From NCBI RefSeq assembly GCF_001418415.1, contig NZ_LIQT01000051.1:1-44582 (forward strand): DNA of 44,582 nucleotides, in the 5' to 3' direction. A model generated the notes under the pieces. The model was given only the letters and a program-made list of their open reading frames with translations, had not been told where the DNA came from and ran no database searches. The position numbers and the translations under genes were made by a program. This DNA comes from Streptomyces hirsutus (GTDB lineage: Bacteria; Actinomycetota; Actinomycetes; Streptomycetales; Streptomycetaceae). Of the stretch, positions 13,931 through 29,628 are shown piece after piece (within the stretch, counting starts at the first letter, position 1; each line of letters opens with the position of its first letter).

Positions 13931-14387
13931 GTGCACCAATCTAATCGTCCACAGGTAAGAGATGCAATGCTCCATAGACCCTTACGTCATGGCGCAGGGT
14001 GTGTGCTTGCATACAGCACTTGAGGGGATCTTGGCCGGAGAGGGAATTTTTTTGTTCTGCACAGGCGGTGGATGATGAAGTACCAGGTCAGGGCCCTTCT
14101 TGCGAGTCAACTCGGGTCTTGTTCACAGGCCTGTCCACCGGGTCGTGCACAGGTTTGGCGGACTTCTCCACAGCATTGGGCCGGTCGTCCACATGCCCTG
14201 TGGATAACCAGATTGGCTGACGGTGCAGACAGGCCTACGGTGGTCCGGCGCCCGCTCCGTCTGCCGGTTTCCAAAAAGTCATAAAACCGGCGCGCGACAA
14301 CCGGAGTCGGGCGTCCTATTTGTCAGTGCCGTGCCGTAGAAAGAGGGCACGGCGAGGTCCGCTCGGCGGACGGGAGGAGGTGGCTCG
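13931..14387. promoter_or_regulatory. Divergent MATE/dnaB control region
   Basis: These 457 bases hold no credible gene. They are notable for repeated TCCACA words described under the DnaA-box cluster. A run of AT-rich sequence (GGGAATTTTTTTGTTC near 14040-14056) is unusual for this genome and could be part of a promoter or unwinding-prone stretch. The dnaB ribosome site GGGAGGAGG is at 14372-14380. Confidence 0.5.
13945..14207. promoter_or_regulatory. Cluster of DnaA-box-like sequences upstream of dnaB
   Basis: Four 9-mers match the Streptomyces DnaA-box pattern YYVTCCACA: TCGTCCACA at 13945-13953, TTCTCCACA at 14164-14172, TCGTCCACA at 14185-14193, and TTATCCACA on the minus strand at 14199-14207. 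Three near matches (TTGTTCACA 14119-14127, CTGTCCACC 14131-14139, TCGTGCACA 14143-14151) fall between them. Six of the seven lie within 90 bases. DnaA binding here is inferred. Confidence 0.6.
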
Positions 14388-15866
14388 GTGAGCATTTCCG
14401 AGCCCTTGGACGACCCGTGGGCCGACAGTGGACCCAGTGATCGTCTGCCAGCCTCCCGACGTCGTGAGGACGGAGGCCGAGGCCGTGACGAGCAGCACGA
14501 CCGCGGCCGGGACTCCGGCGGATGGGACGGCACGGGCTCCACGTTCGAACGGGTGCCGCCGCAGGACCTCGAGGCCGAGCAGTCCGTTCTGGGCGGCATG
14601 CTGCTGTCCAAGGACGCCATCGCCGATGTCGTGGAGATCCTCAAGGGCCACGACTTCTACAAGCCGGCTCACGAAACCGTCTACACAGCCATTCTCGACA
14701 TCTACGCGAAGGGCGAGCCGGCCGACCCCATCACGATCGCCGCGGAACTGACCAAGCGCGGTGAGATCAACAAGGTCGGCGGTGCCTCGTATCTGCACAC
14801 CCTCGTCCAGACGGTGCCCACGGCGGCCAACGCGGCGTACTACGCGGAGATCGTGCACGAGCGCGCCGTGCTGCGCCGCCTGGTCGAGGCCGGTACCCGC
14901 ATCACACAGATGGGGTACGCGGCCGACGACGACGTCGACGAGATCGTCAACCGGGCGCAGGCCGAGATCTACGCCGTCACGGAACAGCGCACCAGTGAGG
15001 ACTACCTCCCGCTCGGCGACATCATGGAGGGCGCGCTCGACGAGATCGAGGCGATCGGCTCCCGCAGCGGCGAGATGACCGGTGTGCCCACGGGGTTCAC
15101 GGACTTCGACTCGCTCACCAACGGGCTGCACCCCGGGCAGATGATCGTCATCGCCGCGCGTCCCGCGATGGGCAAGTCCACGCTCGCGCTGGACTTCGCC
15201 CGTGCCGCGTCCATCAAGCACAACCTGCCGAGTGTGGTCTTCTCGCTCGAGATGGGGCGCAACGAGATCGCGATGCGCCTGCTGTCCGCCGAGGCCCGGG
15301 TCGCCCTCCACCACATGCGGTCCGGCACGATGACCGACGAGGACTGGACCCGCCTGGCGCGCCGGATGCCGGACGTGTCGGCGGCCCCGCTCTACATCGA
15401 CGACTCCCCGAACCTGTCGATGATGGAAATCCGTGCCAAGTGCCGTCGGCTGAAACAGCGCAACGACCTGCGGCTGGTCGTCATCGACTACCTCCAGTTG
15501 ATGCAGTCCGGCGGTTCCAAGCGGGCGGAGAGCCGTCAGCAGGAGGTCTCGGACATGTCCCGTAACCTCAAGCTGCTCGCCAAGGAACTGGAGTTGCCGG
15601 TCATCGCGCTCTCCCAGCTCAACCGTGGCCCCGAGCAGCGCACCGACAAGAAGCCGATGGTCTCCGACCTGCGTGAGTCGGGTTCCATCGAGCAGGACGC
15701 CGACATGGTCATCCTGCTGCACCGTGAGGACGCGTACGAGAAGGAGTCCCCGCGCGCGGGCGAGGCCGACCTGATCGTGGCCAAGCACCGAAACGGCCCG
15801 ACGGCGACCATCACGGTCGCCTTCCAGGGCCACTACTCCCGTTTCGTGGACATGGCGCAGACCTGA
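14388..15866 (+). CDS. dnaB: Replicative DNA helicase DnaB
   Basis: This 492-residue hexameric helicase unwinds DNA at the replication fork. After a charged N-terminal extension, the DnaB N-domain begins near residue 53 (ERVPPQDLEAEQSVLGGMLL). The RecA-like ATPase has Walker A RPAMGKST (G262-K263-S264), LRLVVIDYLQLM as Walker B, and ALSQLNRGPEQR and SGSIEQDADMVILLHR further on. The frame is uninterrupted, so no intein is present. The start is GTG 14388 with GGGAGGAGG seven bases upstream. The last codons (HYSRFVDMAQT) are highly conserved in the genus and are the likely recognition sequence for the transposon inserted six bases after the stop. The insertion leaves the gene intact but replaces its normal 3' flank. 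Confidence 0.97.
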   Translation: MSISEPLDDPWADSGPSDRLPASRRREDGGRGRDEQHDRGRDSGGWDGTGSTFERVPPQDLEAEQSVLGGMLLSKDAIADVVEILKGHDFYKPAHETVYTAILDIYAKGEPADPITIAAELTKRGEINKVGGASYLHTLVQTVPTAANAAYYAEIVHERAVLRRLVEAGTRITQMGYAADDDVDEIVNRAQAEIYAVTEQRTSEDYLPLGDIMEGALDEIEAIGSRSGEMTGVPTGFTDFDSLTNGLHPGQMIVIAARPAMGKSTLALDFARAASIKHNLPSVVFSLEMGRNEIAMRLLSAEARVALHHMRSGTMTDEDWTRLARRMPDVSAAPLYIDDSPNLSMMEIRAKCRRLKQRNDLRLVVIDYLQLMQSGGSKRAESRQQEVSDMSRNLKLLAKELELPVIALSQLNRGPEQRTDKKPMVSDLRESGSIEQDADMVILLHREDAYEKESPRAGEADLIVAKHRNGPTATITVAFQGHYSRFVDMAQT

Positions 15867-15871
15867 CCGGT

Positions 15872-15876
15872 TCCCT
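15872..15876. repeat. 5-bp target site duplication, dnaB side
   Basis: TCCCT directly abuts the first base of the transposon end. It is identical to 27288-27292 on the other side. Tn7-family transposition creates 5-bp duplications. Confidence 0.9.
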
Positions 15877-15960
15877 TGTAGGGCCTCATTTTCCGTGTCG
15901 GAATCTCACGGTCGATGTCGGATGGATGTCGGATACGACATCGCTGTGAGACCGTCCAGG
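15877..15960. repeat. Transposon right end with overlapping TnsB-type sites
   Basis: Site 1 is the terminal 23-mer (15877-15899). Site 2 (15896-15919, TGTCGGAATCTCAC...GATGTC) overlaps it by four bases and shares TGTnGG, CTCAC and CG-TGTC. A 10-bp unit GATGTCGGAT is then repeated at 15914-15923 and 15925-15934. A third site in the opposite orientation (GACATCGCTGTGAGA, 15937-15951) forms an inverted repeat with site 2. Closely packed sites are typical of Tn7 right ends. The repeat assignment is from direct comparison; protein binding is inferred. Confidence 0.75.
15904..15951 (+). other. Inverted repeat between dnaB and tnsA
   Basis: TCTCACGGTCGATGTC (15904-15919) is nearly the reverse complement of GACATCGCTGTGAGA (15937-15951), with one bulged base and one or two mismatches, around a 17-base spacer. 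In RNA it can form a long hairpin in front of tnsA. It could slow read-through from dnaB into the transposase operon, or act as a TnsB operator. Confidence 0.5.
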
Positions 15961-16090
15961 CTCTTGAGGCTGAATTCGCTCAAACGTGTGGACGTTCCAA
16001 GCTCTCTTGGTGAACGTACCGCCGTACGGCCCAGGCTGTCACCGACTGCTTGATCGCATCGAACCTGATGCTGCGGGAGTGGGGGTGCTT

Positions 16091-16807
16091 GTGCCAGTTG
16101 AGTCGGCAATGGTGTGTTTCCGTACATCGGGCCGGGAGTTCGAAGACGAGCCATGGGAGAGCGTCAGCAGCGCGACGTTGGCGACAGCGTCTCCATGGCG
16201 GACATTCCGGTGGTACGACGGCCAGAAGCACTACTCGGGCACCTACTGGTCGTCGACCATGTGTGACCACGTGATCTACGAGTCGCGGCTTGAACTTGCT
16301 CGACTGTTGTTTGACGACTTCGACCCATCCGTACGCCGCATCCTTGCCCAGCCCTTCCTGCTGAAAGCCGAGGTGGAAGGCAAGGTTCGCAAACACATCC
16401 CGGACTACCTGCTGATCAGCGAGGACGGTCCGGTCGTGGTCGACGTCAAGCCGAGGCACCGGGTGGCCAAGCCAGAGGTGGCGTTCACTTTCGACTGGAC
16501 GCGGCGGTTGGTGGAGACACGCGGATGGCGATACGTCGTGTGGAGCGAACCTGCGCCTGCGGAACTCGAGAACCTTCGGTTCCTCGCCGGGTACCGACGT
16601 GACTGGCTTTTCGATGGTCTCCTGCTCGACGAACTTCGAGCGATGGGGCTGGATTGCCGGACACTTGGCGAACTCGATGACGCACTCACCGGACGGGAAC
16701 CGGAGGAGGTCCGTGCTGGGGTCCTTCACCTTCTCTGGCGTGGTGAGCTGGTCACCGACTTGACTACCCCGCTCAGCGGTCATCACGTTCTGAAGGCTTC
16801 GAAGTGA
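16091..16807 (+). CDS. tnsA: TnsA-like transposon endonuclease
   Basis: TnsA cuts the 5' strands at the transposon ends, allowing cut-and-paste movement together with TnsB. The frame shows the restriction-endonuclease-like core: ESRLELARLLF with the catalytic Glu (E68 from this start), AQPFLLKAEVEGKVRKHIPD with D105, and VVVDVKPRHR with K120 of the xVK motif. A smaller C-terminal domain follows. The start is uncertain. GTG at 16091 or 16085 lies behind GGGAG (16075-16079); ATG 16109 has no ribosome site; and ATG 15986 would extend into the transposon end. The product is about 238 residues, compared with 273 for E. coli TnsA. Its stop overlaps the tnsB start by four bases (GTGA), so translation is coupled. 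Presence of TnsA argues for excision rather than copy-in transposition. Confidence 0.9.
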   Translation: MPVESAMVCFRTSGREFEDEPWESVSSATLATASPWRTFRWYDGQKHYSGTYWSSTMCDHVIYESRLELARLLFDDFDPSVRRILAQPFLLKAEVEGKVRKHIPDYLLISEDGPVVVDVKPRHRVAKPEVAFTFDWTRRLVETRGWRYVVWSEPAPAELENLRFLAGYRRDWLFDGLLLDELRAMGLDCRTLGELDDALTGREPEEVRAGVLHLLWRGELVTDLTTPLSGHHVLKASK

Positions 16808-18933
16808 GCTGGGCCGGAGTCCGCGTGGGGGTTGGTACACGGTTCCGCTATGACGGCGAGACCGTTGAGCTCGTCGAGCTGGCGATCACCGCGAACGGCA
16901 ACGAGGCGGTACTGAAGAACGGCCGCGGGAAGCTGCTGAGACTGGCAGTGAAGGAGCTGCTGCTGTCTGATCGAGTTCGTGTGATCCCGGATGCTCCGGG
17001 ACCGTCCGGTGACGACGACGAAGACGTCGCTGGCGTCGTGCTGAGCCAGCTGTCGAAAGCCGAGCAAGACGGACTACGAGTGCGGGCAGGCCATGTCCGG
17101 GAGGTCCTCACTGGTTACCGTTCGGGTGCTCCCGAGCTGGCAGCGGAAGGCGAGCCGAGGCCGGAATACTCGCCTGACCTCCCGCTCGGCGAGCGCTACG
17201 CGAGCAAGGCCGCTGAACTCGGCGTCACCGTTCGTACCGTCGAGCGCTGGGTTCGGGACTTCCGCCGTGGCGGCGAGGCGGGCTTGGCGGCTGCCGGGCG
17301 ACCCGCACGTGGGCGGGCCACGAAACTGGATGACCGGTGGGTGGAGACAGCCACGGAGGTCATGGTCGAGCATGCCAAGGAGTCCAAGCCGTCCCGCACG
17401 CTGGTGATCGAGCGGACCCGAGCACGGGTGGTTGCACGGTTCGGTCCGGATGTCGTCCCGCAACCCAGCCGGGCTACTGCCTTCCGGCTGCTTGAGGAGT
17501 TGGAGGACCAGCACCCGCTCTTCCGACTGAGTGCGAAGCGGAACCGGGACATCGCTGGCCGGCCAAGTGAGCCTTATGGCAAGTTGCGGCCGACCAGGCC
17601 GGGCGAGTACCTCCTGATGGACTCCACCCGGCTGGACGTTTTCGCCTTCGACCCGTTCACGCTTCGATGGGTTCAGGCTGAGCTCAGCATCGGTATGGAC
17701 TGGTACACCCGCTGCGTCACCGGCATCCGCCTCACCCCGGTGTCGACGAAGGCGGTGGACGTCAGCGCGGTGCTCTACCAGTCGTTCCGGCCCAGGCCGG
17801 CTGGGAAGGACTGGCCGCGCTACGCGGTTTGGCCCGAGCACGGCATCCCACGGACGGTCCTCGTGGATACGGCTGTCGCCGAAGGGGCTGGTGCAGCTGG
17901 CCCGATTCTGGTTCCGGAAACCCTGGTCATCGACCACGGAAAGCAGTACGACTCCGAGCATCTGACCAGCGTCTGCCGACGGATGGGTATCTCGATCCAG
18001 CCTGCGAGGCTACGGACGGGCCGCGACAAAGGGCCAGTCGAAAGATTCTTCCGCACCCTGCGCGAGGGCCTGCTTCAAGCATTGCCCGGCTATAAGGGGC
18101 CGGACGTCCATTCCCGGGGGGAGAACCCGGAGGACGACGCCTTCTTCTTCCTGCATGAGCTGGAGGCGATCATCCGTGAGTGGGTCGCGGCGGTCTACCA
18201 CCATCGACCGCACACGAGTCTGGTCGACCCGGGTCTGCCAGGGCTGCGGATGTCCCCCGCCGCGATGTTCGAGCACGGCATGGCCCGGGCGGGTTACATC
18301 GAGGCCTCCAGAGACCCTGACCTCGCCTACGAATTCCTGAAGACCGAATGGCGCACGATCCAGCACTACGGAGTCGAGATCGGCCGTCGCCGCTACAGCG
18401 GCCCCGGCCTCAAAGGCCTCAGCGATGTCCGGAGTCCCTACAAGAGTCCGGTCGAGAACGGATGGCCCTTCCAGGTTGACCCCGACGACATCACCCGCAT
18501 CTACGTCCGGGACCTGGACCGTCGCTGGCGCACCCTGACCTGGGAACATGCGCCCACGGCCGGTATGCCGCTGAGCGAGGATGCTCTCGCCTTCGCCCGG
18601 AAACTGGCTGCTGCGAAGTATCGCTTTCCTGACGACCGTCTTGCGGTCGCCGACCTATTGGAGCGCTGGAACCTCGGCCTGGGCACAACGCTGGCAGAGC
18701 GGCGGATGGCCCTGCGGCTATCGCGAGAGCAAGCGGCCATCGAACTGCCCGAGTCCGACGAGTCAGTCGTCTCGCTGCCCTCAGTCCGCAAAGCCCTGGG
18801 GGACAAAGAGGGCTCGTCCCACGAGGAGCCGGAGCAGATGGAGCCGGCCGAGACGGGTGATGACGACGAGGCCGACTTCGAAGTCCTCGTCGAAGAGGAC
18901 GACTTCTACGCCGACGCATTGGAGGACGTGTGA
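16804..18933 (+). CDS. tnsB: TnsB-like DDE transposase
   Basis: The 709-residue protein, close in length to Tn7 TnsB (702), joins the 3' transposon ends to target DNA and binds the end repeats. An N-terminal region has a helix-turn-helix (SKAAELGVTVRTVERWVRDF, about residues 136-155). The retroviral-integrase-like core has D273 (LLMDSTRLDVF), D377 (VIDHGKQYDSEHL) and E413 (GPVERFFRTLREG), with the D-E spacing of about 35 expected for this superfamily. A Mu-transposase-type beta-barrel follows (RRYSGPGLKGL). The C-terminus is very acidic (AETGDDDEADFEVLVEEDDF) and probably contacts TnsC. The GTG start at 16804 overlaps the tnsA stop, and its own stop overlaps tnsC, giving one translationally coupled operon. 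Confidence 0.95.
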   Translation: MSWAGVRVGVGTRFRYDGETVELVELAITANGNEAVLKNGRGKLLRLAVKELLLSDRVRVIPDAPGPSGDDDEDVAGVVLSQLSKAEQDGLRVRAGHVREVLTGYRSGAPELAAEGEPRPEYSPDLPLGERYASKAAELGVTVRTVERWVRDFRRGGEAGLAAAGRPARGRATKLDDRWVETATEVMVEHAKESKPSRTLVIERTRARVVARFGPDVVPQPSRATAFRLLEELEDQHPLFRLSAKRNRDIAGRPSEPYGKLRPTRPGEYLLMDSTRLDVFAFDPFTLRWVQAELSIGMDWYTRCVTGIRLTPVSTKAVDVSAVLYQSFRPRPAGKDWPRYAVWPEHGIPRTVLVDTAVAEGAGAAGPILVPETLVIDHGKQYDSEHLTSVCRRMGISIQPARLRTGRDKGPVERFFRTLREGLLQALPGYKGPDVHSRGENPEDDAFFFLHELEAIIREWVAAVYHHRPHTSLVDPGLPGLRMSPAAMFEHGMARAGYIEASRDPDLAYEFLKTEWRTIQHYGVEIGRRRYSGPGLKGLSDVRSPYKSPVENGWPFQVDPDDITRIYVRDLDRRWRTLTWEHAPTAGMPLSEDALAFARKLAAAKYRFPDDRLAVADLLERWNLGLGTTLAERRMALRLSREQAAIELPESDESVVSLPSVRKALGDKEGSSHEEPEQMEPAETGDDDEADFEVLVEEDDFYADALEDV

Positions 18934-20048
18934 CTGACCCGCTCCCGCTGGGCCTGGGGAATCTGGCGTTGTCGCGGAAGGAGGACTTCAAGGAGTTCGC
19001 CAACGCTCCGCGTCGCGAACAGCCCAGGCTGCTGACGAGGACAGAGCTGAAAGCTCTGACCGCTGAGGCGAGAGCCGTCTACGACCGACTGCGGCGGGAG
19101 TGGCATGCCAACCTCGGGCCGATCAGGACGCAGCAACTGGCTGATCTTCACGAGGATTTGTGGGACATCGTCGACAGCAATCAGCAGGACGGTGACAAGG
19201 CCAAGGGCGCCGTGGCTGTCGACGCCTTTCCCGGCCTCGGGAAGACGACCTCGGTGCTGGCGTTCCTCCGTGAGTTCCACCACCGGGAGATCGCCGAGAA
19301 CGGCGAGTTCACAGCGCAGGGACACGAACGGCTTCCGGTCTGCCGGGTCGGACTGACCGGCAACACCGGCATGAAGGACCTCAACCGTGCCATTCTGGAA
19401 TTCTTCGGCCATGCTGGACGCAACCGCGGAACGGCCGCCCAGATGGGCCAGCGGGCCCTGGACTGCGTGTTGTCCTGCGAAGTGCGCGTCCTCGCACTCG
19501 ACGATCTGCACTTCCTGAAGTGGCGCAACACCAGCGGCATCGAGGTCAGCAACCACCTGAAGTGGATCGCCAACGAGTTCCCCGTGACCTTGCTGATGAT
19601 CGGCGTCGGACTCGCAGAGAAGGGCCTGTTCAGCGAAGGAACTACTTCCGGTGACACAGCCCTGGCCCAGACAGGCCGGCGCACGACTCGACTGGACATG
19701 CAGCCCTTCACCATCAAGAACGAGGCGGGCCGCCGAGAATGGAGGAAGATGCTTCTCGCCCTGGAGAAGCGAGTGGTCCTGGCCGACAAGTATCCCGGCA
19801 TGCTTGCAGACGATCTTTCCGACTACCTCTTTGCCCGAAGCACCGGGCATATCGGCTCGCTGATGACACTGATCAACCGGGGCTGCCAAAGAGCCGTCCG
19901 CAGCGGCACCGAACGCCTCGACCGTGACCTGCTCGACCGAGTGAAGAACGACGAGGCATCCGAGAAGGCTCGCAGGGAGCTCGAAGCAGCCCTGGACAAG
20001 CGACGACTCACCAGCCGGCCCCGATCCAGCAACCGGAAAGCCGCGTGA
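18930..20048 (+). CDS. tnsC: TnsC-like AAA+ transposition regulator
   Basis: TnsC is the ATPase that connects the target-site protein to the TnsAB transposase and mediates target immunity. This 372-residue protein has Walker A FPGLGKTTS (G102-L-G-K105-T-T107) and Walker B VRVLALDDLHFL (D191-D192). It also has TLLMIGVGLAEKGLF after sensor-type residues and the ARSTGHIGSLMTLINRGC C-terminal lid seen in TnsC/TniB proteins. It is shorter than E. coli TnsC (555) and nearer to the compact TnsC of other Tn7-like families. The GTG at 18930 overlaps the tnsB stop and the tga at 20046-20048 overlaps the tniQ start. Confidence 0.94.
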   Translation: MTDPLPLGLGNLALSRKEDFKEFANAPRREQPRLLTRTELKALTAEARAVYDRLRREWHANLGPIRTQQLADLHEDLWDIVDSNQQDGDKAKGAVAVDAFPGLGKTTSVLAFLREFHHREIAENGEFTAQGHERLPVCRVGLTGNTGMKDLNRAILEFFGHAGRNRGTAAQMGQRALDCVLSCEVRVLALDDLHFLKWRNTSGIEVSNHLKWIANEFPVTLLMIGVGLAEKGLFSEGTTSGDTALAQTGRRTTRLDMQPFTIKNEAGRREWRKMLLALEKRVVLADKYPGMLADDLSDYLFARSTGHIGSLMTLINRGCQRAVRSGTERLDRDLLDRVKNDEASEKARRELEAALDKRRLTSRPRSSNRKAA

Positions 20049-22687
20049 CGTCCGGCCTGCGGACTCTCCCGATCAGGGTCGCGCCGCTGCCAGGAGAAGC
20101 CCTGGACTCCTGGCTGGAGACCCTGGCCCACCGCAGCATGGTCAGCTTCCGCGAGATCCTGATCGCCTTGGGACTGCCCGGTCGGCGCGACGGCAACCTC
20201 CCTGACCTCACCCGCTACCTCGAGTCGGACCAGGCCGAGCAGGCCGCGGCCGTGAGCGGAGTCCCCGCTGACCGGTTGCATGCGATGACGTTGCGCCAGT
20301 ACGACGGCCATGCGCTCGTACTGCACCCTCACCGCCGGACGGTGAACCGCATGCAGCTATGGGGCCGAAACGGCTCCCGTTACTGCCCCCGATGCCTTCA
20401 CGAACACGACGGCCGCTGGCAGTTACGCTGGCGCCTCCCCTGGAGCTTCGCTTGCACTCGGCACCGGATCCTGCTGCCGCACGCCTGTCCCTCTTGCAAC
20501 CAGCGCACCCGCCACGGCCGAGTCAGCATCTTCCGTGATCTTCCACCCCATCAGTGTCCTACGACGCTGAAACCGTCAGGGGCTCTCTGCCAGACGGACC
20601 TCACCCTGGCCCCCGCTGCCGCCCTTCGCGAAGACAGCCCAGAACTGGCGTCCCAGCGCTTGATCAACGACCTGCTGGACCGAGTCGAACAGGGACAAGC
20701 GCAGTCCCTCCCCGCACCCCGAATGATCTTCAACGACCTGCGTGCGCTGGCCTCCTGGGTCTTGCGCATCGCGGAACCCGACGACTTCCCGACACTCGAT
20801 CCGCATGTCGAGCAGGCATGCCAGGCCTACGCCGGAGACGGTCAGTTTTCGCCTACCTCGGCGGCAGTGACCGCAGGCGGACTCACCCGCGCCGTCCACA
20901 TCCTTCAACAGGGCTCCGACAAGACAAACATCGCCACGCTGCGGACCCTCCTCGAACGAGACGGCGAGCGACTGGACCTCATGCCGCTCGGTGACATCAA
21001 CAAACGCTGGAGGGCACACTCCACTGCCCTGCAACAACTGATCTGGCAGGCCATGGACACACGCATGGCGAACGTGGACCGGCTCCGCTTCCGAAGCTGC
21101 ACCACTCGCCCGCGCCCACCCCACAAGATGAATGAGACCCTGACCACCGCACGGGCCGGCCGAGTCCCACAGTTGCTCTGGCGCGGATGGACTGCCCGCT
21201 TCCTGCCCGCCGCCGGCGTCCGGAACATCGGCAACTTCCGCGCGGCCCTGGCCGTCGCACTCCTCCTCCCCGGAGCATCCAAACGTCACTTCGATCCCCT
21301 GATCAGCATGCTTGGTCATCAGGCGCAACTCGACGTCCACTACACGCTCGCCGAGCTTGCCCAGCAGGGCCACGACGGAGTCCTCACCGGGCTCTGCGAG
21401 ATCGCCGACTACCTGGACACCCAGCCCGTCCCCATCGACTACGAACGTCGACGCGGGCTGACAGGTGAGGGCCTCTTGCCCGCTGATGACTGGGTTTCGA
21501 TTTGCACACAGACCGGTGTCCACCCGGGACAGGAAGCGCGGCTGCTGTCTGTGCGCCGCTACCTCTATCAGCGCATCACCGGAAATGATCTCCGGCAGGC
21601 GCCAGCGTCGCTCCGGATCACGACCGCCGAGGAGACGGGAGGCGTCGCGGTAGTTCCCTTCCGGATCACCGCCGCCCTGCTGAGAGCTCTCGACGAGTAC
21701 GGCGAGAACTACCTACGGGGTTTGGGCATCGACGAACCGCTGACCTGGGAGCCCCCAGCGGATCTTGCCGCAGGACTCTGCCTACCCGGCAGACCAGTGG
21801 ACGTGACACGAGCACACCGTCTCATCTGCGCTGAGGGCCAAGCGCCCGCCGTCGCAGCGAAGGAGATGGGCGTCGCTCTGGAAAGCATCCGCCATTGCTT
21901 CGAGCAGCACCCACCCAGCAGCCCCTGGTCCTCCAAAAGCGGCGGCTCTTGGGTCGACCCCAGCAGGCCCATCGCTCGACGGTCCCGGCTTGCCGCAGCT
22001 CAGGCCCGCCAGCAAGCACATACCGTGCTGACCAACGAATTCCTGCGAAGCGAGTACCTCGACGCGCGGAAGACGGTCAGAGAGATCGCCTCAGAGACCC
22101 GTCTCCCCAAAAGACTCATCAGCGAGGTGCTGAATCAGTCCGGCCTCATCGCTAGCCGAGAGCCGTCGAGGAAGCCGATCGTCGATGAGCAGTGGCTCCG
22201 AGAGCAGTACGTCCGGCAGGCCCGGACCCTGGCCAGCATCGCCACCGAGCTGGACATGAGCCCAACGACCCTGACACGCCACCTCCGGGCCATGGGCATC
22301 GCACTCCGTCCACGCGGCGGACGCCGGGCCGTGAGCCGAACGGAACTCGAATCAGTACCGCCGCTGATCAGGCCGGCCCTCACAGATCGGCGCTGTTGGG
22401 GCCGCCTTCAGCGGTTTCGAGAAGCCATGGAGCATCGCACCCTCGCCGAGGCATCACGCCAGCTCGGCACCACTCGCTCGGTCCTTTACACCCAGTTTGC
22501 TGCCCTGGAAAGGGATTTGGGCGTCCAGCTCTACATCCGCCCCCGCCGGGGCGAATCACTCCGCCCCACCGAGGCCGGACAAGCCGTGATGGACGCGCTC
22601 ACCGACAGCGAAGGCGCTCGACCAGGCGGCAACACCATCGAGACCGGCATTCCTCCCGCCTCCAGGGCAGAACCCATGACCAGCTGA
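20045..22687 (+). CDS. tniQ: Large TniQ/TnsD-like target-selection protein
   Basis: TniQ proteins choose the insertion site and pass it to TnsC. The N-terminus has the family signature LPIRVAPLPGEALDSWLETL. A zinc finger follows with C114-x2-C117, C137-x2-H140 and C148-x2-C151. The protein is 880 residues, much longer than Tn7 TnsD (508). Its C-terminal third has a series of DNA-binding units: EGQAPAVAAKEMGVALESI (about 595), RKTVREIASETRLPKRLISE (about 675), ARTLASIATELDMSPTTLTR (about 725), and a LysR-like unit RTLAEASRQLGTTRSVLY with LERDLGVQLYIRP and RPTEAG (about 798-850). By analogy with TnsD at glmS it should bind the 3' end of dnaB; this is inference from the insertion point. GTG 20045 overlaps the tnsC stop. 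Confidence 0.9.
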   Translation: MTSGLRTLPIRVAPLPGEALDSWLETLAHRSMVSFREILIALGLPGRRDGNLPDLTRYLESDQAEQAAAVSGVPADRLHAMTLRQYDGHALVLHPHRRTVNRMQLWGRNGSRYCPRCLHEHDGRWQLRWRLPWSFACTRHRILLPHACPSCNQRTRHGRVSIFRDLPPHQCPTTLKPSGALCQTDLTLAPAAALREDSPELASQRLINDLLDRVEQGQAQSLPAPRMIFNDLRALASWVLRIAEPDDFPTLDPHVEQACQAYAGDGQFSPTSAAVTAGGLTRAVHILQQGSDKTNIATLRTLLERDGERLDLMPLGDINKRWRAHSTALQQLIWQAMDTRMANVDRLRFRSCTTRPRPPHKMNETLTTARAGRVPQLLWRGWTARFLPAAGVRNIGNFRAALAVALLLPGASKRHFDPLISMLGHQAQLDVHYTLAELAQQGHDGVLTGLCEIADYLDTQPVPIDYERRRGLTGEGLLPADDWVSICTQTGVHPGQEARLLSVRRYLYQRITGNDLRQAPASLRITTAEETGGVAVVPFRITAALLRALDEYGENYLRGLGIDEPLTWEPPADLAAGLCLPGRPVDVTRAHRLICAEGQAPAVAAKEMGVALESIRHCFEQHPPSSPWSSKSGGSWVDPSRPIARRSRLAAAQARQQAHTVLTNEFLRSEYLDARKTVREIASETRLPKRLISEVLNQSGLIASREPSRKPIVDEQWLREQYVRQARTLASIATELDMSPTTLTRHLRAMGIALRPRGGRRAVSRTELESVPPLIRPALTDRRCWGRLQRFREAMEHRTLAEASRQLGTTRSVLYTQFAALERDLGVQLYIRPRRGESLRPTEAGQAVMDALTDSEGARPGGNTIETGIPPASRAEPMTS

Positions 22688-22701
22688 TCGTCGACGGACG
22701 G

Positions 22702-23175
22702 CTATCGAACAGGACCGCACTCATCGACCAGAACGGTCGGCTCTGACAGGAATACGTTCGGGTCGACGGGCCCATAGGCAACGTTGAACGTGTCGAGCCA
22801 GTACGACCAGTCCCGTATTCCGGCGGCGCTACTGAACCGATAGTTCAACTGCCAACGGACCCACTGCCCCGGGACCAGACGCACCGCCGGCGGCCGCCAC
22901 GGGCGCGGCGGCAATCCGAACAACGGCTCCACACGCGCCAGCACGCGAAGCCGATCGCCCTCGTCTCGCAAGGTGAGTCCGACCTGGCGCAAGTCCCTCT
23001 CGCTCTCGTGCGGCTCGAAACCGTCACGCTCGGACATCTGGATGACCTGGGCGAAGGAAGACGGCACTGGTGACACCAGGAACCCCATTGGCGCCGAATT
23101 CCTGCGGGCAGCAGCGTCACCGCCCCTGGAGTGCTTCGTCCAGGACGTCCTGATCCACTGAACCGTGATCTCCAC
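22702..23175 (-). CDS. Hypothetical cargo protein
   Basis: A 157-residue frame begins at GTG 23175 (AAGGCGG about six bases upstream) and converges on tniQ, ending 14 bases beyond its stop. The N-terminal 30 residues are basic. The core contains SSFAQVIQMSERDGFEPHES, then RLRVLARVEPLFGLPPRPW and a C-terminal WVRWQLNYRFSSAAGI / WSYWLDTFNVAYGP with many aromatic residues. It looks like a soluble beta-rich domain. I do not recognise the family. An internal ATG (MGFLVSPVPSSF) is a possible shorter start. Consistent codon use and conserved-looking core make a real gene likely. Confidence 0.65.
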   Translation of the reverse strand: MEITVQWIRTSWTKHSRGGDAAARRNSAPMGFLVSPVPSSFAQVIQMSERDGFEPHESERDLRQVGLTLRDEGDRLRVLARVEPLFGLPPRPWRPPAVRLVPGQWVRWQLNYRFSSAAGIRDWSYWLDTFNVAYGPVDPNVFLSEPTVLVDECGPVR

Positions 23176-23319
23176 TGGAACCGCCTTTCGCCCCGGACAC
23201 TACGGCGACCACAGCCTGCACGGCACTCTGGTTTCGGCGTGCTGCCCGGCGGCCCGGAAGATTCCGGCTGAGACGGACCTATTGCACGGCCCTAGAGTCC
23301 AACAGTGGAGGAGGCGAAG

Positions 23320-23655
23320 ATGGCGCTGAACAAGAAGGGTTCCCGGCGCATAACCGTTGACGGGATCGAGTACCGCTGGCGGATCCGCAGGAAGCCCTCC
23401 TACATGCAGGGACTCTGCTGGACACCGATGACCTATGCGGTTGAAGCGGCCAGCGGCAGCCAGCCGGGCACGACGTTGATCGTCACCAGCGGTCAGGCCC
23501 ATCCCAGCAACTGGGTGGGCGTCGAGACGGAGCCCATTCGTCCGGCTCACGTTGCTGCCAGCATTCGAGAGGCACGGGATCAAGGCTGGGATCCAACCCG
23601 GGTCGGTTCTCCTTTCCAGCTCGACCGATCCGCAGGATTCATCGCCCAGGCATGA
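23320..23655 (+). CDS. Hypothetical cargo protein
   Basis: The 111-residue product starts MALNKKGSRRITVDGIEYRW at ATG 23320, which has GGAGGAGG just upstream; the GTG at 23305 in the same frame is less likely. It has the sequence VDGIEYRWRIRRKPSYMQ, TYAVEAASGSQPGTTLIV, and a C-terminal PIRPAHVAASIREARDQGW helix followed by a short GSPFQL tail. Small proteins of this style are frequent as orphan genes in Streptomyces, sometimes beside immunity-like genes; no function is known to me. No membrane or signal sequence is seen. Confidence 0.7.
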   Translation: MALNKKGSRRITVDGIEYRWRIRRKPSYMQGLCWTPMTYAVEAASGSQPGTTLIVTSGQAHPSNWVGVETEPIRPAHVAASIREARDQGWDPTRVGSPFQLDRSAGFIAQA

Positions 23656-23701
23656 GACAGAGCGGAGTAGGGCGGCGCATCTGGCGCGGCATCATGGCCT
23701 G

Positions 23702-24016
23702 GTGACCACATGGATGCGCTGCTACTGGGACGAGGAAGACACCTGGTTCTACTTCGAGGTCGACGCCGAAGGCTGGGTGATCCGGCAGGTCGAACTCGAA
23801 GGGCCAGAGCTGATCCCGATCGCAGCAGCCTCCCTCGCCGAGTGGCAGCGGGCCCGCGACGCGGGCCGCCTCGGTGATTACGACAGCAGATTCGGGATCA
23901 CTGCCGAGCTGCCCGTCTCGGAATGGGAAGGCCACGACCCCGAACAACTCACCTTCGAGGAGTTCGAGGATGTCTGGGGCTCTGCCCGTCAGCAGATCGC
24001 ATCCCGGCCCAGCTGA
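23702..24016 (+). CDS. Hypothetical cargo protein, possibly immunity-like
   Basis: A 104-residue acidic protein with MRCYWDEEDTWFYFEVDAEG at its start, followed by WVIRQVELEGPELIPIAAASLAEWQRARDAG. The pattern of a Trp/Tyr-rich beta hairpin, EVD-GW and RQVE recalls small DUF6881-like or immunity-type proteins of actinobacteria; this is a weak resemblance from memory. GTG 23702 is taken as the start; ATG 23714 is an alternative and neither has a strong ribosome site. It follows the 111-residue gene by 46 bases on the same strand. Its 3' end overlaps, antisense, the probable truncated gene at 23949-24233. Confidence 0.6.
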   Translation: MTTWMRCYWDEEDTWFYFEVDAEGWVIRQVELEGPELIPIAAASLAEWQRARDAGRLGDYDSRFGITAELPVSEWEGHDPEQLTFEEFEDVWGSARQQIASRPS

Positions 24017-24233
24017 CCTCTCGGCGCCGCACTGGTGTGAAGATCGTGGAACTCCAGCGCGACCCGTCGGCAAGATGAACCTCGGCATCGACGTTGCAGA
24101 CCTCCTCGATCGCCTCGTCCGGTTCCACGAGGAAGAGCACCTGGAAGCCGGCGGCCCGAACCCGGTAATAGGGAGCCTCCCAACCGGCATCAGAAGCCCG
24201 ACCCTCAGACGCCGGGCCCGCCTGTTGCGGCAT
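23949..24233 (-). pseudogene. Probable truncated cargo gene
   Basis: The first two thirds of this 94-residue frame looks like a real small protein: EAPYYRVRAAGFQVLFLVEP, DEAIEEVCNVDAEVHLADGS, RWSSTIFT. After TIFT the sequence turns into low-quality basic residues (PVRRREVSWAG... RHPRTPRR) that overlap the opposite gene 23702-24016. This suggests that the natural C-terminal half was lost by deletion or rearrangement. It begins 13 bases after the stop of 24246-24644 on the same strand, so the pair may once have been an operon. The claim of truncation rests on the break in sequence character, not on a seen homologue. Confidence 0.45.
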
Positions 24234-24245
24234 CGACGCCGTCAG

Positions 24246-24644
24246 TCACTGAAGCTCCTCACCCGGCGGTATGAAGGCGTCGGCGCTGTCGGCGTCCTCC
24301 ACATGCCCCTGAGCATCGACCGTGATGGCAGTCGCCCGGCCCTGCGAAGTGATCAACCAGGCCAGCACCTGCTCCGTGAGAGGTGATCCACCCGGCCCTT
24401 CATCCGTCCAGTGTGCCCGCCATCCCCCACCGGGTATCGCGGCAACGACCTGATCGGCCCGCTCCAAGTGGGAGAAGTCCACGTAGTCCGTGACCTGGCG
24501 CAGTGCCCCTCGCTGCGGGTCGACCACCAAGGCTGTCCCGGTTGCGGGATCCCATCCCTCCACACGCACCATGCGACCGATCTCCGTCTCAGTGCCATTG
24601 AAGATGGCGGTCCATCCGGTCTGATTGAAGTATCGGAGTTGCAT
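24246..24644 (-). CDS. Hypothetical cargo protein
   Basis: From ATG 24644 the frame encodes 132 residues starting MQLRYFNQTGWTAIFNGTET. It has EIGRMVRVEGWDPATGTALVVDPQRGALR and a C-terminal WRAHWTDEGPGGSPLTEQVLAWLITSQGRA followed by an acidic tail. The repeated Gly/Trp pattern suggests a small beta-rich soluble protein, not an enzyme I recognise. The upstream frame to 24860 has unlike composition and is not used. The probable truncated gene 23949-24233 follows on the same strand. Confidence 0.6.
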   Translation of the reverse strand: MQLRYFNQTGWTAIFNGTETEIGRMVRVEGWDPATGTALVVDPQRGALRQVTDYVDFSHLERADQVVAAIPGGGWRAHWTDEGPGGSPLTEQVLAWLITSQGRATAITVDAQGHVEDADSADAFIPPGEELQ

Positions 24645-24969
24645 GGCGTCATGATCCCGGAGGTCCGGCGACCTGCTCGACCTCCGTGTCGTGGAAGCCG
24701 TGGTTATCAAGAAACCGGCAGGCCGGTGATGCTGATGACAAAGACCCGACGGACTGTGGAAGCGGACCCAGACATTCCTGTAGGGCTCACGGAGCTTGTG
24801 ACCGACCGGCGGGCAGCCGGGCCAGCGTTGCTGCCACAGATCCGTCAGAAGCACCCGCACATCTCCAGTCAGTGGAGCCGCGACTGGCTCCCCAAGCAGG
24901 GGAGGCCGCCGAGTAGGCGGGAGAGAGCGCGGTCAGTGGATTGATGCTTTTCTATGCTGGTGCCCACGT
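24645..24969. other. Cargo gap with at most one short open frame
   Basis: This 325-base stretch separates two minus-strand genes. A plus-strand frame at 24729-24944 could encode 71 residues (MLMTKTRRTVEADPDIPVGL...), rich in Arg and Pro, without a good ribosome site. I cannot tell whether it is used. Nothing else is recognisable. Confidence 0.35.
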
Positions 24970-26211
24970 TCACTCGTTGGGGGACTCCGTTGCCAGTGGG
25001 ATACCGCACCGCCAGCAGTCGTTCGCGTGGTCGTCCTGGCAGACGTAGCGGATGGCACCATCCACGCACCATTCGGCGGCCTCCTCGGACAGCAGGTCGG
25101 GCCCGGCAAGGAGTAGCCGACGAAATTCCGTGGTGTCCGCAATGTCGGCCGGGCGGTTGGTGAACCACTCGTCGAACCAAGGCTTGTCCCGGTGCATGCG
25201 CCAGTGCGCATTCTCCCGGTCGTCGACAGCCGTAAGGAACCGATCGACGATGCGCCCCCAACTCGGAGCTCCGAACCAGCCGTTGTCGGACGCGCAGAAG
25301 GATTCGATCAGGGTTCGCAGGCCGAATTCCTTCTCGTGAAGGCAGTACCTTCGCCCCCATGAGATCGCGACCTGTGCCATCTCCGCGAGTTCTTCTCGCG
25401 GATCAACCTCGTGCGCCGGGTCGTCAGCGTTGTGGCAGGCCAGCCCGAGCTCGAGCACGGACTGCCCTGTCGGTAGAACCCGAGACGGGTTGACGATCGC
25501 GAGACCGACAGCGATCCAGTCGACATGGTCGAACGACAGCATCGAGCGCACGAGTCGGGTGGTTGCCACGTTGATCCGCATCATCGTGCCGTCGTGGAGC
25601 GGACTCATACCGGCATGCCAGTTCTCGACGGGTGTGTTGCGCCACACGGCGAGCGTGATGCGGGTGGCAGCCAGCCACAGCAGGGCGTCGTCGTCAAGGT
25701 GCCCGAACCGCTTGGCACACTCCTGGGCCCCGTAGGGGATCAACTCTCCCGGTTTCGGCCACCTATGGCTGTCAGGCCCTTCAGGCGCGTACTCGTAGTC
25801 GCCGGCGTACTCGTCGAGGATCTCGCTCAACTCGGCTGCGCTGTAAGCCTCGCTGTACTCGGAGCCGTCCGGCCCCTCGACGGTGTACATGTCGTGGTCC
25901 CATGACACATACACGTCGTCCCAGAGCACGACGTCGTCGCACTCGATGGCGTTATCCGTCACAACCGGCCTGATGGTGATCGGCGCAGTACGCCCGTCGG
26001 TTCGCTCGCCGTCCTTCTTGGCGGCCCATGCGGTGATGATCCCGAGCGGCTTCGGAAGGAGAGGGCCGACCTCGGTGATGCTGAACGGCTCGTCGTCGTC
26101 ATCGGTGTCGAACCGGCTGTTGACGAACGCGACCGCCTCGGAGGGCGTGCTGACGATGGACTGGGTACCACTCTGGTTGTCAACCACTCGCCACAACGCG
26201 CTGTTCTTCAT
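24970..26211 (-). CDS. Hypothetical 413-residue cargo protein with C-terminal Cys cluster
   Basis: ATG 26211 (MKNSALWRVVDNQSGTQSIV) is chosen because GGAGAG precedes it; the longer frame to 26454 is not plausible. The protein is strongly acidic in its first 160 residues (DTDDDDEPFSITEV, ECDDVVLWDDVYVSWDHD). The middle part is helical (RLVRSMLSFDHVDWIAVGLA). At the very end CVDGAIRYVCQDDHANDCWRC gives four Cys and one His within about 20 residues, like a small zinc-ribbon. There is no signal peptide. I do not recognise the family. It is divergent from the 26495 gene with 283 bases between the starts. Confidence 0.7.
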   Translation of the reverse strand: MKNSALWRVVDNQSGTQSIVSTPSEAVAFVNSRFDTDDDDEPFSITEVGPLLPKPLGIITAWAAKKDGERTDGRTAPITIRPVVTDNAIECDDVVLWDDVYVSWDHDMYTVEGPDGSEYSEAYSAAELSEILDEYAGDYEYAPEGPDSHRWPKPGELIPYGAQECAKRFGHLDDDALLWLAATRITLAVWRNTPVENWHAGMSPLHDGTMMRINVATTRLVRSMLSFDHVDWIAVGLAIVNPSRVLPTGQSVLELGLACHNADDPAHEVDPREELAEMAQVAISWGRRYCLHEKEFGLRTLIESFCASDNGWFGAPSWGRIVDRFLTAVDDRENAHWRMHRDKPWFDEWFTNRPADIADTTEFRRLLLAGPDLLSEEAAEWCVDGAIRYVCQDDHANDCWRCGIPLATESPNE

Positions 26212-26494
26212 GATGCTCTCCGATCGCGGTGAATGCACCCGGGGCGGGTGCGATGCACCGGGTCGCTCGATACTGACTCCGATTAGGTGCTCAAAGGGGC
26301 CGGGCTGACAGGCTGCACTCGTGGCTCTTAACGATGCCTGGACGCCGGTTGGGCCGAACCACCCCCGAGCAGACCAGGGAAGCCGCCGTTTTCCGGTGCT
26401 GGCGGTCTCGGGGCCGGCCCCGTCTCGCCGAACTCTAGGCGCAGGGTCTGACATTCGAACCGGGCAGCACGTTCATGTGGTCGACAATGAGCCC
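26212..26494. promoter_or_regulatory. Divergent promoter region in the cargo
   Basis: The region separates the 413-residue gene (-) and the 198-residue gene (+). The plus-strand frame is open from 26321 but its composition before 26495 does not look protein-coding. No clear operator palindrome was found. Confidence 0.35.
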
Positions 26495-27091
26495 ATGGAC
26501 GTTCCTGAGTTGCTCGAAGCAGCTTCTCTGCTGGTTCCGGAAGAGACCGCCACCGAGAACGACATCACGGTGCGAGACATCTGGGACTACCTCGTCCACG
26601 ACGAGTGGGAGATCGCCCTGGACCTGCTGGAGGAGCTCGGGGACGCCTGCTCGCTTCCTCTGGCCTTCTGGGAACAGCTCGCCGAAGCCGCTGAGCAGCT
26701 TCGGCTGGAGCGGAGCGCGAGGTGGTGCCATTGGCGATGCTCCGAACTCCGCAACGGTGCGATCAGGGCGGATCTGACGCTCCGCCCCGCCGCCGAGGCG
26801 CGACGCACGGCGCCGATCCCCGGCGCCGGTGTTCTGCGACCCATGTGGGACATCGGACACTTCTCACCCACCGGCGGACGCGCGGTGAGCATCGCTGGGC
26901 TCTGGGTTGAGAACACGCCTGTGCTGGAGCCCGGAGGACGAGCCACGGTTCGCCTTGTGCCCCTCATTCCCTCCCACTGGACGCACGTCCAGCCCGGCCA
27001 GCAGATCACCATGCACCAAAACAGAGCCGTGGCCGGCACCGCAGTCATCTTGGAGGTCCGGCGCCCTGCCACGACCATGCCCGCGCGATGA
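26495..27091 (+). CDS. Hypothetical cargo protein with EF-Tu-like beta-barrel C-terminus
   Basis: The 198-residue protein starts at ATG 26495 (MDVPELLEAASLLVPEETAT). Residues 1-100 are helical and acidic (DIWDYLVHDEWEIALDLLEELGD). The second half reads LRPMWDIGHFSPTGGRAVSIAGLWVENTPV, LEPGGRATVRLVPLIPSHW and VQPGQQITMHQNRAVAGTAVILEVR. That order (Gly-rich strand, EPGG-xV-x-L-P, PG-x-I-x-x-x-E/Q-x-R-x-V-A-x-G) resembles domain 3 of EF-Tu-type translation factors. Function is unknown; an RNA- or ribosome-linked role would be speculation. It is the last gene before the left end of the transposon. Confidence 0.65.
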   Translation: MDVPELLEAASLLVPEETATENDITVRDIWDYLVHDEWEIALDLLEELGDACSLPLAFWEQLAEAAEQLRLERSARWCHWRCSELRNGAIRADLTLRPAAEARRTAPIPGAGVLRPMWDIGHFSPTGGRAVSIAGLWVENTPVLEPGGRATVRLVPLIPSHWTHVQPGQQITMHQNRAVAGTAVILEVRRPATTMPAR

Positions 27092-27187
27092 CATGAGCCG
27101 CTGGTGCACGTATCTCCGTACGTAGTGGTGCACCCGGACCGGGTAGTCGGACAGGCGGTGCAGCGTGCTGGACAGCCTGAGGAAAGT

Positions 27188-27287
27188 GACACCGATCTGA
27201 GACAGCCGTCGGCCGACACCGCGTGAGACTGAAGAGGGACATCCAGGTCACAGCGTCGGCACATGACACCGAAAGTGAGAACCTACA
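27188..27287. repeat. Transposon left end with three spaced TnsB-type sites
   Basis: The core GACACCGnnnTGAGA recurs three times in the same orientation: GACACCGATCTGAGAC at 27188-27203, GACACCGCGTGAGACT at 27215-27230, and the terminal GACACCGAAAGTGAGA...CTACA at 27265-27287. Wider spacing than in the right end is the same asymmetry as in Tn7. The last site is the terminal inverted repeat. Confidence 0.82.
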
Positions 27288-27292
27288 TCCCT
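27288..27292. repeat. 5-bp target site duplication, distal side
   Basis: TCCCT immediately follows the terminal ACA of the left end and equals 15872-15876. Joining the flanks gives the inferred empty site CCGGT-TCCCT-CCCCG behind dnaB. Confidence 0.9.
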
Positions 27293-27339
27293 CCCCGCTG
27301 AGTAGCCCAGCCATCAGCCGCAGTGCTTGACTCCTCCGC

Positions 27340-28110
27340 ATGTCAACGACTCTTGGCGCGTCACGACCTGACCAGGCCGCCTACATGCTCCGAGCGGCAG
27401 CCGGCGTCGGCCGCGGCTACAAGCGGGAGTTGATGAACCTGCTGGACCTCCAGCAGGGGCAGACGGCACTCGACGTGGGATGCGGTCCGGGCGCCGACCT
27501 GCCGGAGCTGGCCGAACGCGTCGGCGTCAGGGGCACGGTGATCGGAGTCGACCGTGACCCGGCGATGCTCATCGAGGCCCGTCGGCGCACGACAGACCTG
27601 TCGGCAGTGGAGATCCGGGAGGGAGACGCTCATTCCCTGCCCGTCGCGCCGAGGTCAGTGGACCGGGCCAAGATCGACCGGGTTCTCATGCACGTCGTCG
27701 AGCCCGCCGATGTCCTGGCACAACTCCACTCGGTCACCCGGCCAGGTGCGCGGATCGGCCTTGCCGAGCCTGATTGGGACACCCTGGCCGTCGACGCGGA
27801 GGATCTCGGCACAAGCCGCGCCTTCACGCGCTACACCACCTCGGAAGTGGTCCGGCACGCCACCATCGGCCGCAGCCTCGCCCGCCACGCAGAGCAAGCC
27901 GGCTTCACCGTCGAGACGGTGATCGCCACGGCACCGGTCTTCCTCGACTTTCAGGACGCGGATCACACACTGGGACTGGGCCGCAACCTGCAACAGGCCA
28001 TCCAGGACGGTCACATCGACGAAGAACGTGGCCGTCGCTGGTTCACCTCTCTTTCCGAGGGATCCTTCTTCGCTTCCTTCGTGCTCGTCAGCGTGATCTG
28101 CTCCCGCTGA
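27340..28110 (+). CDS. SAM-dependent methyltransferase
   Basis: This 256-residue class I methyltransferase has motif I LDVGCGPGADLPEL (about 46-60), VIGVDRDPAMLIEARRR for motif II, and VEIREGDAHSLPV for motif III. It then has DRAKIDRVLMHVVEPADVLA and RPGARIGLAEPDWDTLAVD in place of the post-motif region. Such proteins methylate small molecules, often in secondary or lipid metabolism; the substrate is not evident. It starts 48 bases outside the transposon, after the second TCCCT, so it belongs to the host chromosome and would be the gene next to dnaB in the empty site. A ribosome site is not obvious before ATG 27340. Confidence 0.85.
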   Translation: MSTTLGASRPDQAAYMLRAAAGVGRGYKRELMNLLDLQQGQTALDVGCGPGADLPELAERVGVRGTVIGVDRDPAMLIEARRRTTDLSAVEIREGDAHSLPVAPRSVDRAKIDRVLMHVVEPADVLAQLHSVTRPGARIGLAEPDWDTLAVDAEDLGTSRAFTRYTTSEVVRHATIGRSLARHAEQAGFTVETVIATAPVFLDFQDADHTLGLGRNLQQAIQDGHIDEERGRRWFTSLSEGSFFASFVLVSVICSR

Positions 28111-28118
28111 CGAGCACG
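28080..28118 (+). terminator. Hairpin at the end of the methyltransferase gene
   Basis: A 14-bp perfect stem (CGTGCTCGTCAGCG, arms 28080-28093 and 28105-28118) overlaps the last codons and stop of the methyltransferase. Confidence 0.7.
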
Positions 28119-28201
28119 AAGGACGGACGCGGCGCCGGCGGCTCCGGCGTTCCGGCCGCCGACTTCGTACGGGCGGAACCCGCACCTGGTGAACTGAGGG
28201 C

Positions 28202-29578: not shown

Positions 29579-29609
29579 GAATCGCACGCCCAGCCTGCCC
29601 GGGGTGTGT

Positions 29610-29628
29610 CGGAGGTCGAAGACCTCCG
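29610..29628. terminator. Small hairpin between convergent genes
   Basis: CGGAGGTC/GACCTCCG with loop GAA lies 32 bases after the serine hydrolase stop and before the convergent acetyltransferase. Confidence 0.55.

Follow-up and report, generated by a model that had tools for sequence, protein, structure and literature searches.

The 3' end of dnaB as a putative recurrent attachment site of Tn7-like transposons in Streptomyces and other actinomycetes

Introduction

Tn7 has TGT..ACA ends with several TnsB sites and duplicates 5 bp of its target, as does the element considered here, and its insertion behind glmS has become a standard single-copy integration tool in Gram-negative bacteria. According to the available text on its target choice, insertion is directed by TnsD, which binds the end of glmS, and the sequence of the insertion point itself is irrelevant (PMC2918618). 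Other Tn7-like elements apply the same conserved-site strategy to another gene, and Table 1 of a 2024 review gives glmS, yhiN, comM, parE and tRNA genes as sites, represented beyond Tn7 by Tn6230 (yhiN), Tn6022 (comM), Tn7017 (parE) and tRNA-directed types (PMC11406308). For the Actinobacteria-dominated clade 2 of Benler et al. (2021), the available text of that survey names no attachment gene and no experimentally characterised member (PMC8649781), and Tn7706 of Rhodococcus erythropolis NI86/21 is described as a further actinomycete Tn7-like element, with tnsA, tnsB, tniB and tniQ (PMC12915292). Here we analyse a stretch of 44,582 nucleotides from Streptomyces hirsutus (contig NZ_LIQT01000051.1, hereafter the window), in which a Tn7-like transposon of 11,411 bp lies directly behind dnaB, the replicative helicase gene, and we compare it with its relatives, many of which occupy the same position.

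The element resembles Tn7 at attTn7 in encoding TnsA, TnsB, TnsC and a TniQ-domain selector, in its single orientation, and in lying just downstream of an essential gene, with a fixed spacing to the coding end. It differs in its target, dnaB instead of glmS, in its distance from the stop codon, 7-14 bp at dnaB as against about 20 bp in the published description of Tn7 (PMC2918618), and in its selector, whose C-terminus carries a LysR-like winged helix, with no TnsE seen. Unlike the elements at yhiN, comM, parE and tRNA genes, those at dnaB span several actinomycete genera. Host group and tnsABC-tnsD make-up are shared with clade 2 (PMC8649781), to which the window element likely belongs. Among the top-ranked results of searches in the main texts of open-access papers, none names dnaB as a Tn7-like site; the word dnaB does not occur in the available texts of PMC10293859, PMC11406308 and PMC8649781, and in that of PMC10991518, the one result containing both terms, DnaB serves only as a negative control. 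We rate the dnaB end as a new and widely used attachment site for an uncharacterised clade of a known kind of element. It would provide a concrete site for an actinobacterial clade that, in the survey's available text, had no characterised member in 2021 (PMC8649781). Two applications may be envisaged: dnaB-directed TnsABC-TniQ could offer Streptomyces and its relatives an integration tool like that based on Tn7, and divergent TniQ proteins on one site, with near relatives elsewhere, are material for studying how TniQ proteins change target.

Boundaries of the element

The dnaB stop codon (TGA, 15864-15866) is followed by CCGGT, by the left copy of a duplicated TCCCT, and then by the left end, the element itself starting 10 bp past the stop; the right end's last base directly precedes the second TCCCT (Table 1), and the 5-bp duplication is exact. 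The 23-bp ends (TGTAGGGCCTCATTTTCCGTGTC and TGTAGGTTCTCACTTTCGGTGTC), of the TGT...ACA type, are by reading identical at 19 of 23 positions. Three TnsB-site-like motifs lie in each end, and six of the seven matches in the window fall within the two ends, an enrichment that is no independent test, the motif having been defined after inspection of these ends; TnsB binding to them is predicted. Such termini, with several predicted TnsB-type sites and a 5-bp target duplication, are a hallmark of Tn7-like elements.

The initial annotation had described a complete Tn7-like transposon with exact ends behind dnaB, and in this the genes, domains, 23-bp repeats and identical TCCCT copies bear it out. 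Its span of 15872-27292 takes in both duplications, the element proper occupying 15877-27287, and its placement of the insertion six bases after the dnaB stop is right for the first base of the duplication and not for the element itself. No tRNA gene was found in the window, and no Rfam family in 13000-30000.

Recurrence behind dnaB

A junction pattern composed of the dnaB end, 4-14 bp and the element end was searched for, with the reversed pattern as control (genomes, loci and contigs are cited below by working labels beginning with G, L and C). The dnaB/left-end junction is present in 36 of 392 Streptomyces genomes (37 matches), and the reversed control gave no match. The same junction occurs in 65 stretches of the GTDB contig collection, mostly Streptomyces, with Actinacidiphila (2), Wenjunlia (1) and one Pseudonocardiaceae bacterium beyond that genus. 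Exact duplications flank eight of the 13 dnaB-sited elements checked at both ends, and these are eight different 5-mers; we estimate the chance of a spurious 5-bp duplication at about 1% per element.

Numerous dnaB-site insertions are relics. Among 23 further junction genomes, 22 were examined (23 loci; G021 was left out, and L202, L209 and L210 are among the loci cut by contig ends), and matches to tnsA, tnsB and tnsC are kept together at one locus only, L218. Three of these loci are short elements of 615, 3,266 and 1,894 bp with exact duplications. Elements also stack at the site: L070 and L200 carry second sets of tns remnants downstream, and in Actinacidiphila epipremni an element with the duplication CCTGT abuts the end of an older element, which the duplication overlaps by three bases and which is followed by a tnsA fragment.

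In a second genus (g4), 17 of 148 genomes have TnsB matches, at 20 places. At six of the seven places with TnsB identity of at least 58% the left end lies right behind dnaB, the seventh being on a short contig and not placeable. TnsB identity is 56% or less at the other 13 places; an element end adjoins the dnaB end at one of them (L300), with tnsA 3.3 kb off, and 12 have no dnaB match in the upstream stretch fetched. A search across the class gave matches in 21 of 296 genomes, of which 16 do not belong to Streptomyces; dnaB directly precedes the element in three of the ten examined among those 16 (G614, G504 and the g4 member G581), which lie outside Streptomycetaceae. Further TnsABC-TniQ elements close behind a dnaB stop, which had been proposed as a check, are found repeatedly, in Streptomyces and beyond, and dnaB is, as judged from these junctions, a recurrent attachment site in Streptomyces and other actinomycetes. 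Tentatively, and with rather less than even confidence, the dnaB 3' end may be regarded as an old, class-wide site, with plasmids as a second target, used by elements that would have a single TniQ and neither TnsE nor Cas proteins, and that would stack and trade cargo at dnaB.

Some of the dnaB genes concerned have features of their own. In S. himastatinicus (G179) two dnaB-like ends on different contigs (L202, L203) each have an element end, and a second dnaB copy is possible. At L071 (G105) the dnaB matches within 2450-4564 cover residues 11-269 and 263-434 and lie about 0.85 kb apart, and at g4 loci L293, L294 and L296-L298 the best dnaB match has one of its limits near residues 256-304. 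An intein near the P-loop would be expected to give such a pattern, and the genomes in question have Tn7-like ends or fragments behind dnaB as well. At L298, GAACCTACAGG lies between dnaB and the left end (about 5190-5201, oriented) and resembles the tip of an inverted element end.

Distance and orientation

The gap between stop codon and element in the 65 contigs is 7, 8, 9, 10, 11 and 12 bp in 4, 10, 9, 33, 8 and 1 cases, respectively. In the other genera the length of the DnaB C-terminus varies and the gap is 7-14 bp; counted from the Met codon in the conserved segment FVDMA, the element begins after 22-26 bp there, 22-27 bp in the 65 contigs and 25 bp in the window (ATG at 15852). Apart from L300, the Met-codon distance is constant though the stop codon moves, and the anchor would therefore be the coding end of dnaB. 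The sequence at the insertion point seems not to matter, because the A. epipremni element has inserted at the same ruler distance into an older element's end. Orientation is likewise uniform: at all 58 loci where tns matches follow the junction, some of which are one genome present in two collections, every match runs away from dnaB. The tnsA-proximal end thus faces dnaB as Tn7 faces glmS, in agreement with the initial annotation, and insertion is site- and orientation-specific behind a conserved gene, as is typical of Tn7-like elements.

Special conservation of the DNA at the dnaB end was considered as a possible footprint and rejected, since in 40 distinct Streptomyces sequences conservation of dnaB is no higher over the final 60 bp than over the preceding 240 bp. 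As a separate observation, at the left ends of L049, L052, L054, L066, L335 and L300 (L052 and L300 by eye) TGTAG gives an in-frame TAG stop to the reading frame that harbours the element, as if a transposon end that closes the frame made insertion at a gene end tolerable.

Empty site and plasmid copy

The search for the joined empty site, also proposed beforehand, found an element-free allele in G315, to which the joined window flanks align unbroken over 1,520 columns at 89.5% identity and whose DnaB is 99% identical to the window's. Plasmid NZ_CP109110.1 of Streptomyces scopuliridis NBC 01771 carries a copy of the element that is 97.1% identical over 8,159 bp, starting from the first left-end base (TnsB 97.3%, TniQ 97.4%). 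This copy measures 8,708 bp, is flanked by an exact duplication of its own (GCCGC) and has no dnaB among its annotated neighbouring genes; the same arrangement is found in NZ_CP109113.1. Because the plasmid copy begins at the same base with a duplication of its own, the element boundaries are real and not a product of chance. A resemblance of the plasmid target to dnaB was considered and rejected, 85 of 500 shuffles reaching the same local score. The copy (L332, 11075-19782) sits where a perfect 13-bp inverted repeat (GCCGCCGGTCAGG...CCTGACCGGCGGC) begins, and the first five bases of that repeat are the copy's target duplication.

Relatives of TnsB (E up to 1e-60) were found in 58 plasmid records, for most of which Rhodococcus (30) and Streptomyces (19) account, and 28 of the 58 are typed as mobilizable or conjugative. 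Parts of the window's cargo are present, with DNA identity of 88-98%, in G665, G666 and G670, one of which is another genus, with best tns matches there of 71-78%; in G666 and G670 the shared cargo is on the contig of the dnaB-sited element, inside it or in an adjoining relic, and in G665 it and the dnaB junction are on separate contigs. The plasmid records and the shared cargo fit an existence shared between plasmids and a safe site on the chromosome.

Relatives at other sites

The window and the 40 highest TnsC matches in Streptomyces were divided by TnsB identity into a class of at least 58% and one of 42-50%. In the former, 13 of 21 placeable elements are at dnaB, including L038, since its contig starts with the element end that follows dnaB on contig C10; L071-L073 (fragments without tnsB) and L040 and L045 (left end not found) were left out of the 21. 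The 14 members of the 42-50% class comprise L055, at dnaB, L062, which is cut by its contig, not placeable and outside the remaining 13, and 12 elements with no dnaB in the upstream stretch. L061 and L068, for which no left end was found, are counted as sited elsewhere since their upstream stretches have no dnaB match, and L053, which is a further and less similar copy from the L052 genome, is uncounted.

Elements L058, L057, L060, L064, L034 and L047 adjoin the 3' sides of other genes, candidate attachment sites identified by eye, which resemble genes for glyceraldehyde-3-phosphate dehydrogenase, NlpC/P60, an ABC transporter, an OmpA-like protein and a glycoside hydrolase. L042 and L043, from two genomes, have a common target region: the roughly 450 bp preceding the left end are 68% alike in an alignment of 464 columns, the last 40 bp being, by eye, the best conserved. 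At L068 (G190:C13) the tnsC and tniQ matches share one open frame of 838 aa, possibly a TnsC-TniQ fusion.

The component that reads dnaB

A TniQ/TnsD-type protein is the likely reader of the dnaB end. Long TniQ proteins with C-terminal helix-turn-helix domains have an architecture suggested, in the available text of PMC10293859, for direct DNA recognition, and sequence-specific binding of TniQ to the coding end of dnaB would be consistent with the constant distance, which is the evidence for it. On a TnsB tree (34 rows) the dnaB label needs seven changes, a number as low in 7 of 500 shuffles. Quick trees of the TniQ termini (44 rows, 18 at dnaB; L331 of G706, the L300 end, was labelled 'other' despite the element end at its dnaB) require ten changes for the C-termini, which are somewhat clustered (7 of 500 shuffles), and 12 for the N-termini, which are less so (72 of 500).

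Comparison with the window suggests that tniQ has been exchanged between transposases in two elements at dnaB, TniQ and TnsB being 65% and 61% identical in A. epipremni, and 34% and 79% in L036. L067 and L069, which sit elsewhere, have TniQ proteins whose first 640 residues are 39-48% like the window's and whose C-terminal part is not shared. Window-like TniQ C-terminal parts are also present in the non-dnaB elements L034, L047, L052, L057 and L060 and in the unplaceable L062. The TniQ C-terminus as sole determinant of the dnaB site was considered and not established.

Proposed mechanism and alternatives

The sequences themselves show the ends with their duplications, the empty site, the fixed distance and orientation, repeated independent insertion and the plasmid copy. 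Beyond this, we consider it highly probable that the element is a Tn7-like transposon of the cut-and-paste kind and that its TniQ/TnsD-type protein recognises dnaB by the 3' coding end. The C-terminal helix-turn-helix region would make the contact, and TniQ would recruit TnsC and then TnsAB on the paired ends, an order of assembly borrowed from Tn7. TnsAB would insert the element one way, with the tnsA end to dnaB, 22-27 bp past the Met codon, outside the gene and with a 5-bp duplication, and transposition to plasmids would ferry it between hosts. Because the gene stays intact, dnaB would be a safe and universal landing site.

Several findings weigh against this reading. An exact duplication is missing from five of the 13 dnaB-sited elements checked (among these five, L035 is cut by its contig), and eight of the 21 placeable close relatives sit elsewhere (L034, L042, L043, L047, L049, L052, L067 and L069). 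The L300 end lies only 13 bp past the Met codon, the sole exception to 22-27 bp, and the plasmid target does not significantly resemble the end of dnaB. On a tree of whole TniQ proteins (30 rows) the dnaB label is scattered, with eight changes (as low in 93 of 500 shuffles), and the TniQ of L041, at dnaB, is 46-85% identical per 80-residue block to those of L042 and L043, elsewhere, C-terminus included. The earlier claim that this family uses the dnaB 3' end accordingly holds for the window's element and most of its close clade; it does not extend to the wider family, given these eight relatives, the 12 of 13 more distant ones elsewhere and the plasmid copy.

The similar TniQ proteins of L041, L042 and L043 at different sites, together with the better clustering of the dnaB label on TnsB than on whole TniQ, would suit a site chosen by TnsABC, a cargo protein or a host factor, with TniQ merely bridging. 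We regard this as unlikely: L055 leaves little space for an extra gene (tnsA is preceded by about 1.5 kb and tniQ followed by 93 bp), the TniQ proteins are long and end in helix-turn-helix domains of the kind suggested for direct recognition in the available text of PMC10293859, and L067 and L069, without the window-type C-terminal part, sit elsewhere. Some clustering of the TnsB proteins at dnaB would also be expected from a single ancestral insertion, vertically inherited and diversified, but this is very improbable, as 356 of 392 Streptomyces genomes have no junction pattern (degenerate relics may escape it), an empty site is aligned, newer elements are stacked beside older ones, a 97% copy is on a plasmid, and TnsB at dnaB-sited loci is 44-79% identical to the window's where DnaB is 90-97% identical. 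Moreover, the exact duplications differ among elements, and fresh, different ones refute a single ancestral insertion.

That dnaB is merely a tolerant intergenic hot spot, where insertion is random and survivors keep dnaB intact, would accord with family members at many other places and on plasmids. Random insertion predicts a broad spread and both orientations, in conflict with a 22-27 bp spacing from a fixed codon and a uniform orientation at 58 of 58 loci, and we give this explanation hardly any weight. RNA-guided targeting, as in CRISPR-associated transposons (CASTs), can be practically dismissed: TniQ and TnsABC occur in CASTs too, and the TniQ here matches PADLOC TniQ models, but of the array and Cas effector that mark a CAST neither was seen, there being no CRISPR-like repeat array and no Cas gene among the scanned proteins, and the longest word shared with dnaB is no longer than in shuffles.

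Genes and cargo

All four tns genes point away from dnaB and each neighbouring pair overlaps by 4 bp, the open reading frame (ORF) coordinates and domain matches confirming the tnsA-tnsB-tnsC-tniQ operon first annotated. A TnsB-type DDE transposase, a TnsA partner (cut-and-paste), an AAA+ TnsC and a TniQ-domain selector make up the set of the Tn7-like family. TnsA matches NCBIfam TnsA_like_Actin (NF033179) at 252.6 bits (cut-off 110), and its true start is probably near 16080, the annotated plasmid homologue starting about 90 bp further in. TnsB has D273, D377 and E413, the last two separated by 35 residues, and matches solved TnsB proteins, Tn7's own (7pik) among them. In TniQ the TniQ domain occupies aa 9-144 (PF06527, E 2.3e-23), and the C-terminal helix-turn-helix domains include a LysR-like one at aa 787-846. 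An AlphaFold2 model of TniQ (12-row alignment), with a mean pLDDT (predicted local distance difference test) of 64.5, lends weak support to a C-terminus rich in such domains; in a Foldseek search with this model no PDB match reached E 0.001, and the best 50 of 374 rows include LysR-type regulators from E 0.06 on and, at rank 49, a chain of a CAST TniQ complex.

Table 1. Features of the dnaB-sited element in the window
Feature	Position	Strand	Evidence or remark
dnaB, replicative helicase	14388..15866	+	Pfam DnaB_C, DnaB; 3' end is the putative attachment site
Left target duplication TCCCT	15872..15876		sequence
Left end, tnsA-proximal, facing dnaB	15877..15951		starts exactly where plasmid-copy identity starts
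Left-end TnsB-site-like motifs	15884-15899, 15904-15919, 15937-15951	+, +, -	motif scan
tnsA, TnsA-like 5'-end endonuclease	15986..16807	+	PF08722; NCBIfam NF033179
tnsB, DDE transposase	16804..18933	+	Mu-type transposase C-terminal domain (Pfam Mu-transpos_C); DDE residues
tnsC, AAA+ regulator	18930..20048	+	PF13401, PF05621 (TniB/AAA); Walker motifs picked by eye
tniQ/tnsD-type target selector, 880 aa	20045..22687	+	PF06527, PF00126; low-confidence AlphaFold2 model
Cargo gene, function unassigned	22702..23175	-	no Pfam/NCBIfam/PADLOC match; annotated in plasmid copy
Cargo gene	23320..23655	+	hypothetical in plasmid copy, transferred by offset; no Pfam match
Cargo gene	23702..24016	+	hypothetical in plasmid copy, transferred by offset; no NCBIfam match
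Cargo ORF	24246..24860	-	no family match
Cargo ORF, 413 aa from internal ATG	24970..26211	-	longer ORF has third-position GC content (GC3) 0.80; no family match
Cargo ORF	26321..27091	+	GC3 0.76; no family match
Right end	27188..27287		three TnsB-site-like motifs, all - strand
Right-end TnsB-site-like motifs	27265-27280, 27215-27228, 27188-27202	-	motif scan
Right target duplication TCCCT	27288..27292		sequence

The cargo amounts to about 4.5 kb, and family matches reveal no function for it: among the ORFs scanned nothing was above cut-off in Pfam, NCBIfam or PADLOC, with uneven library coverage (ORF 23305-23655 was scanned with Pfam only, ORF 23552-24016 with Pfam and NCBIfam only). No family match to TnsE was found among the cargo ORFs scanned, TnsE being weakly conserved according to the available text of PMC8649781. 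The first cargo gene matches one PHROG of unknown function (E 0.038), and the third matches Pfam DUF6881 below cut-off (E 0.062). The DNA at 24037-26280 recurs at 96% identity in G670, in another dnaB-sited element.

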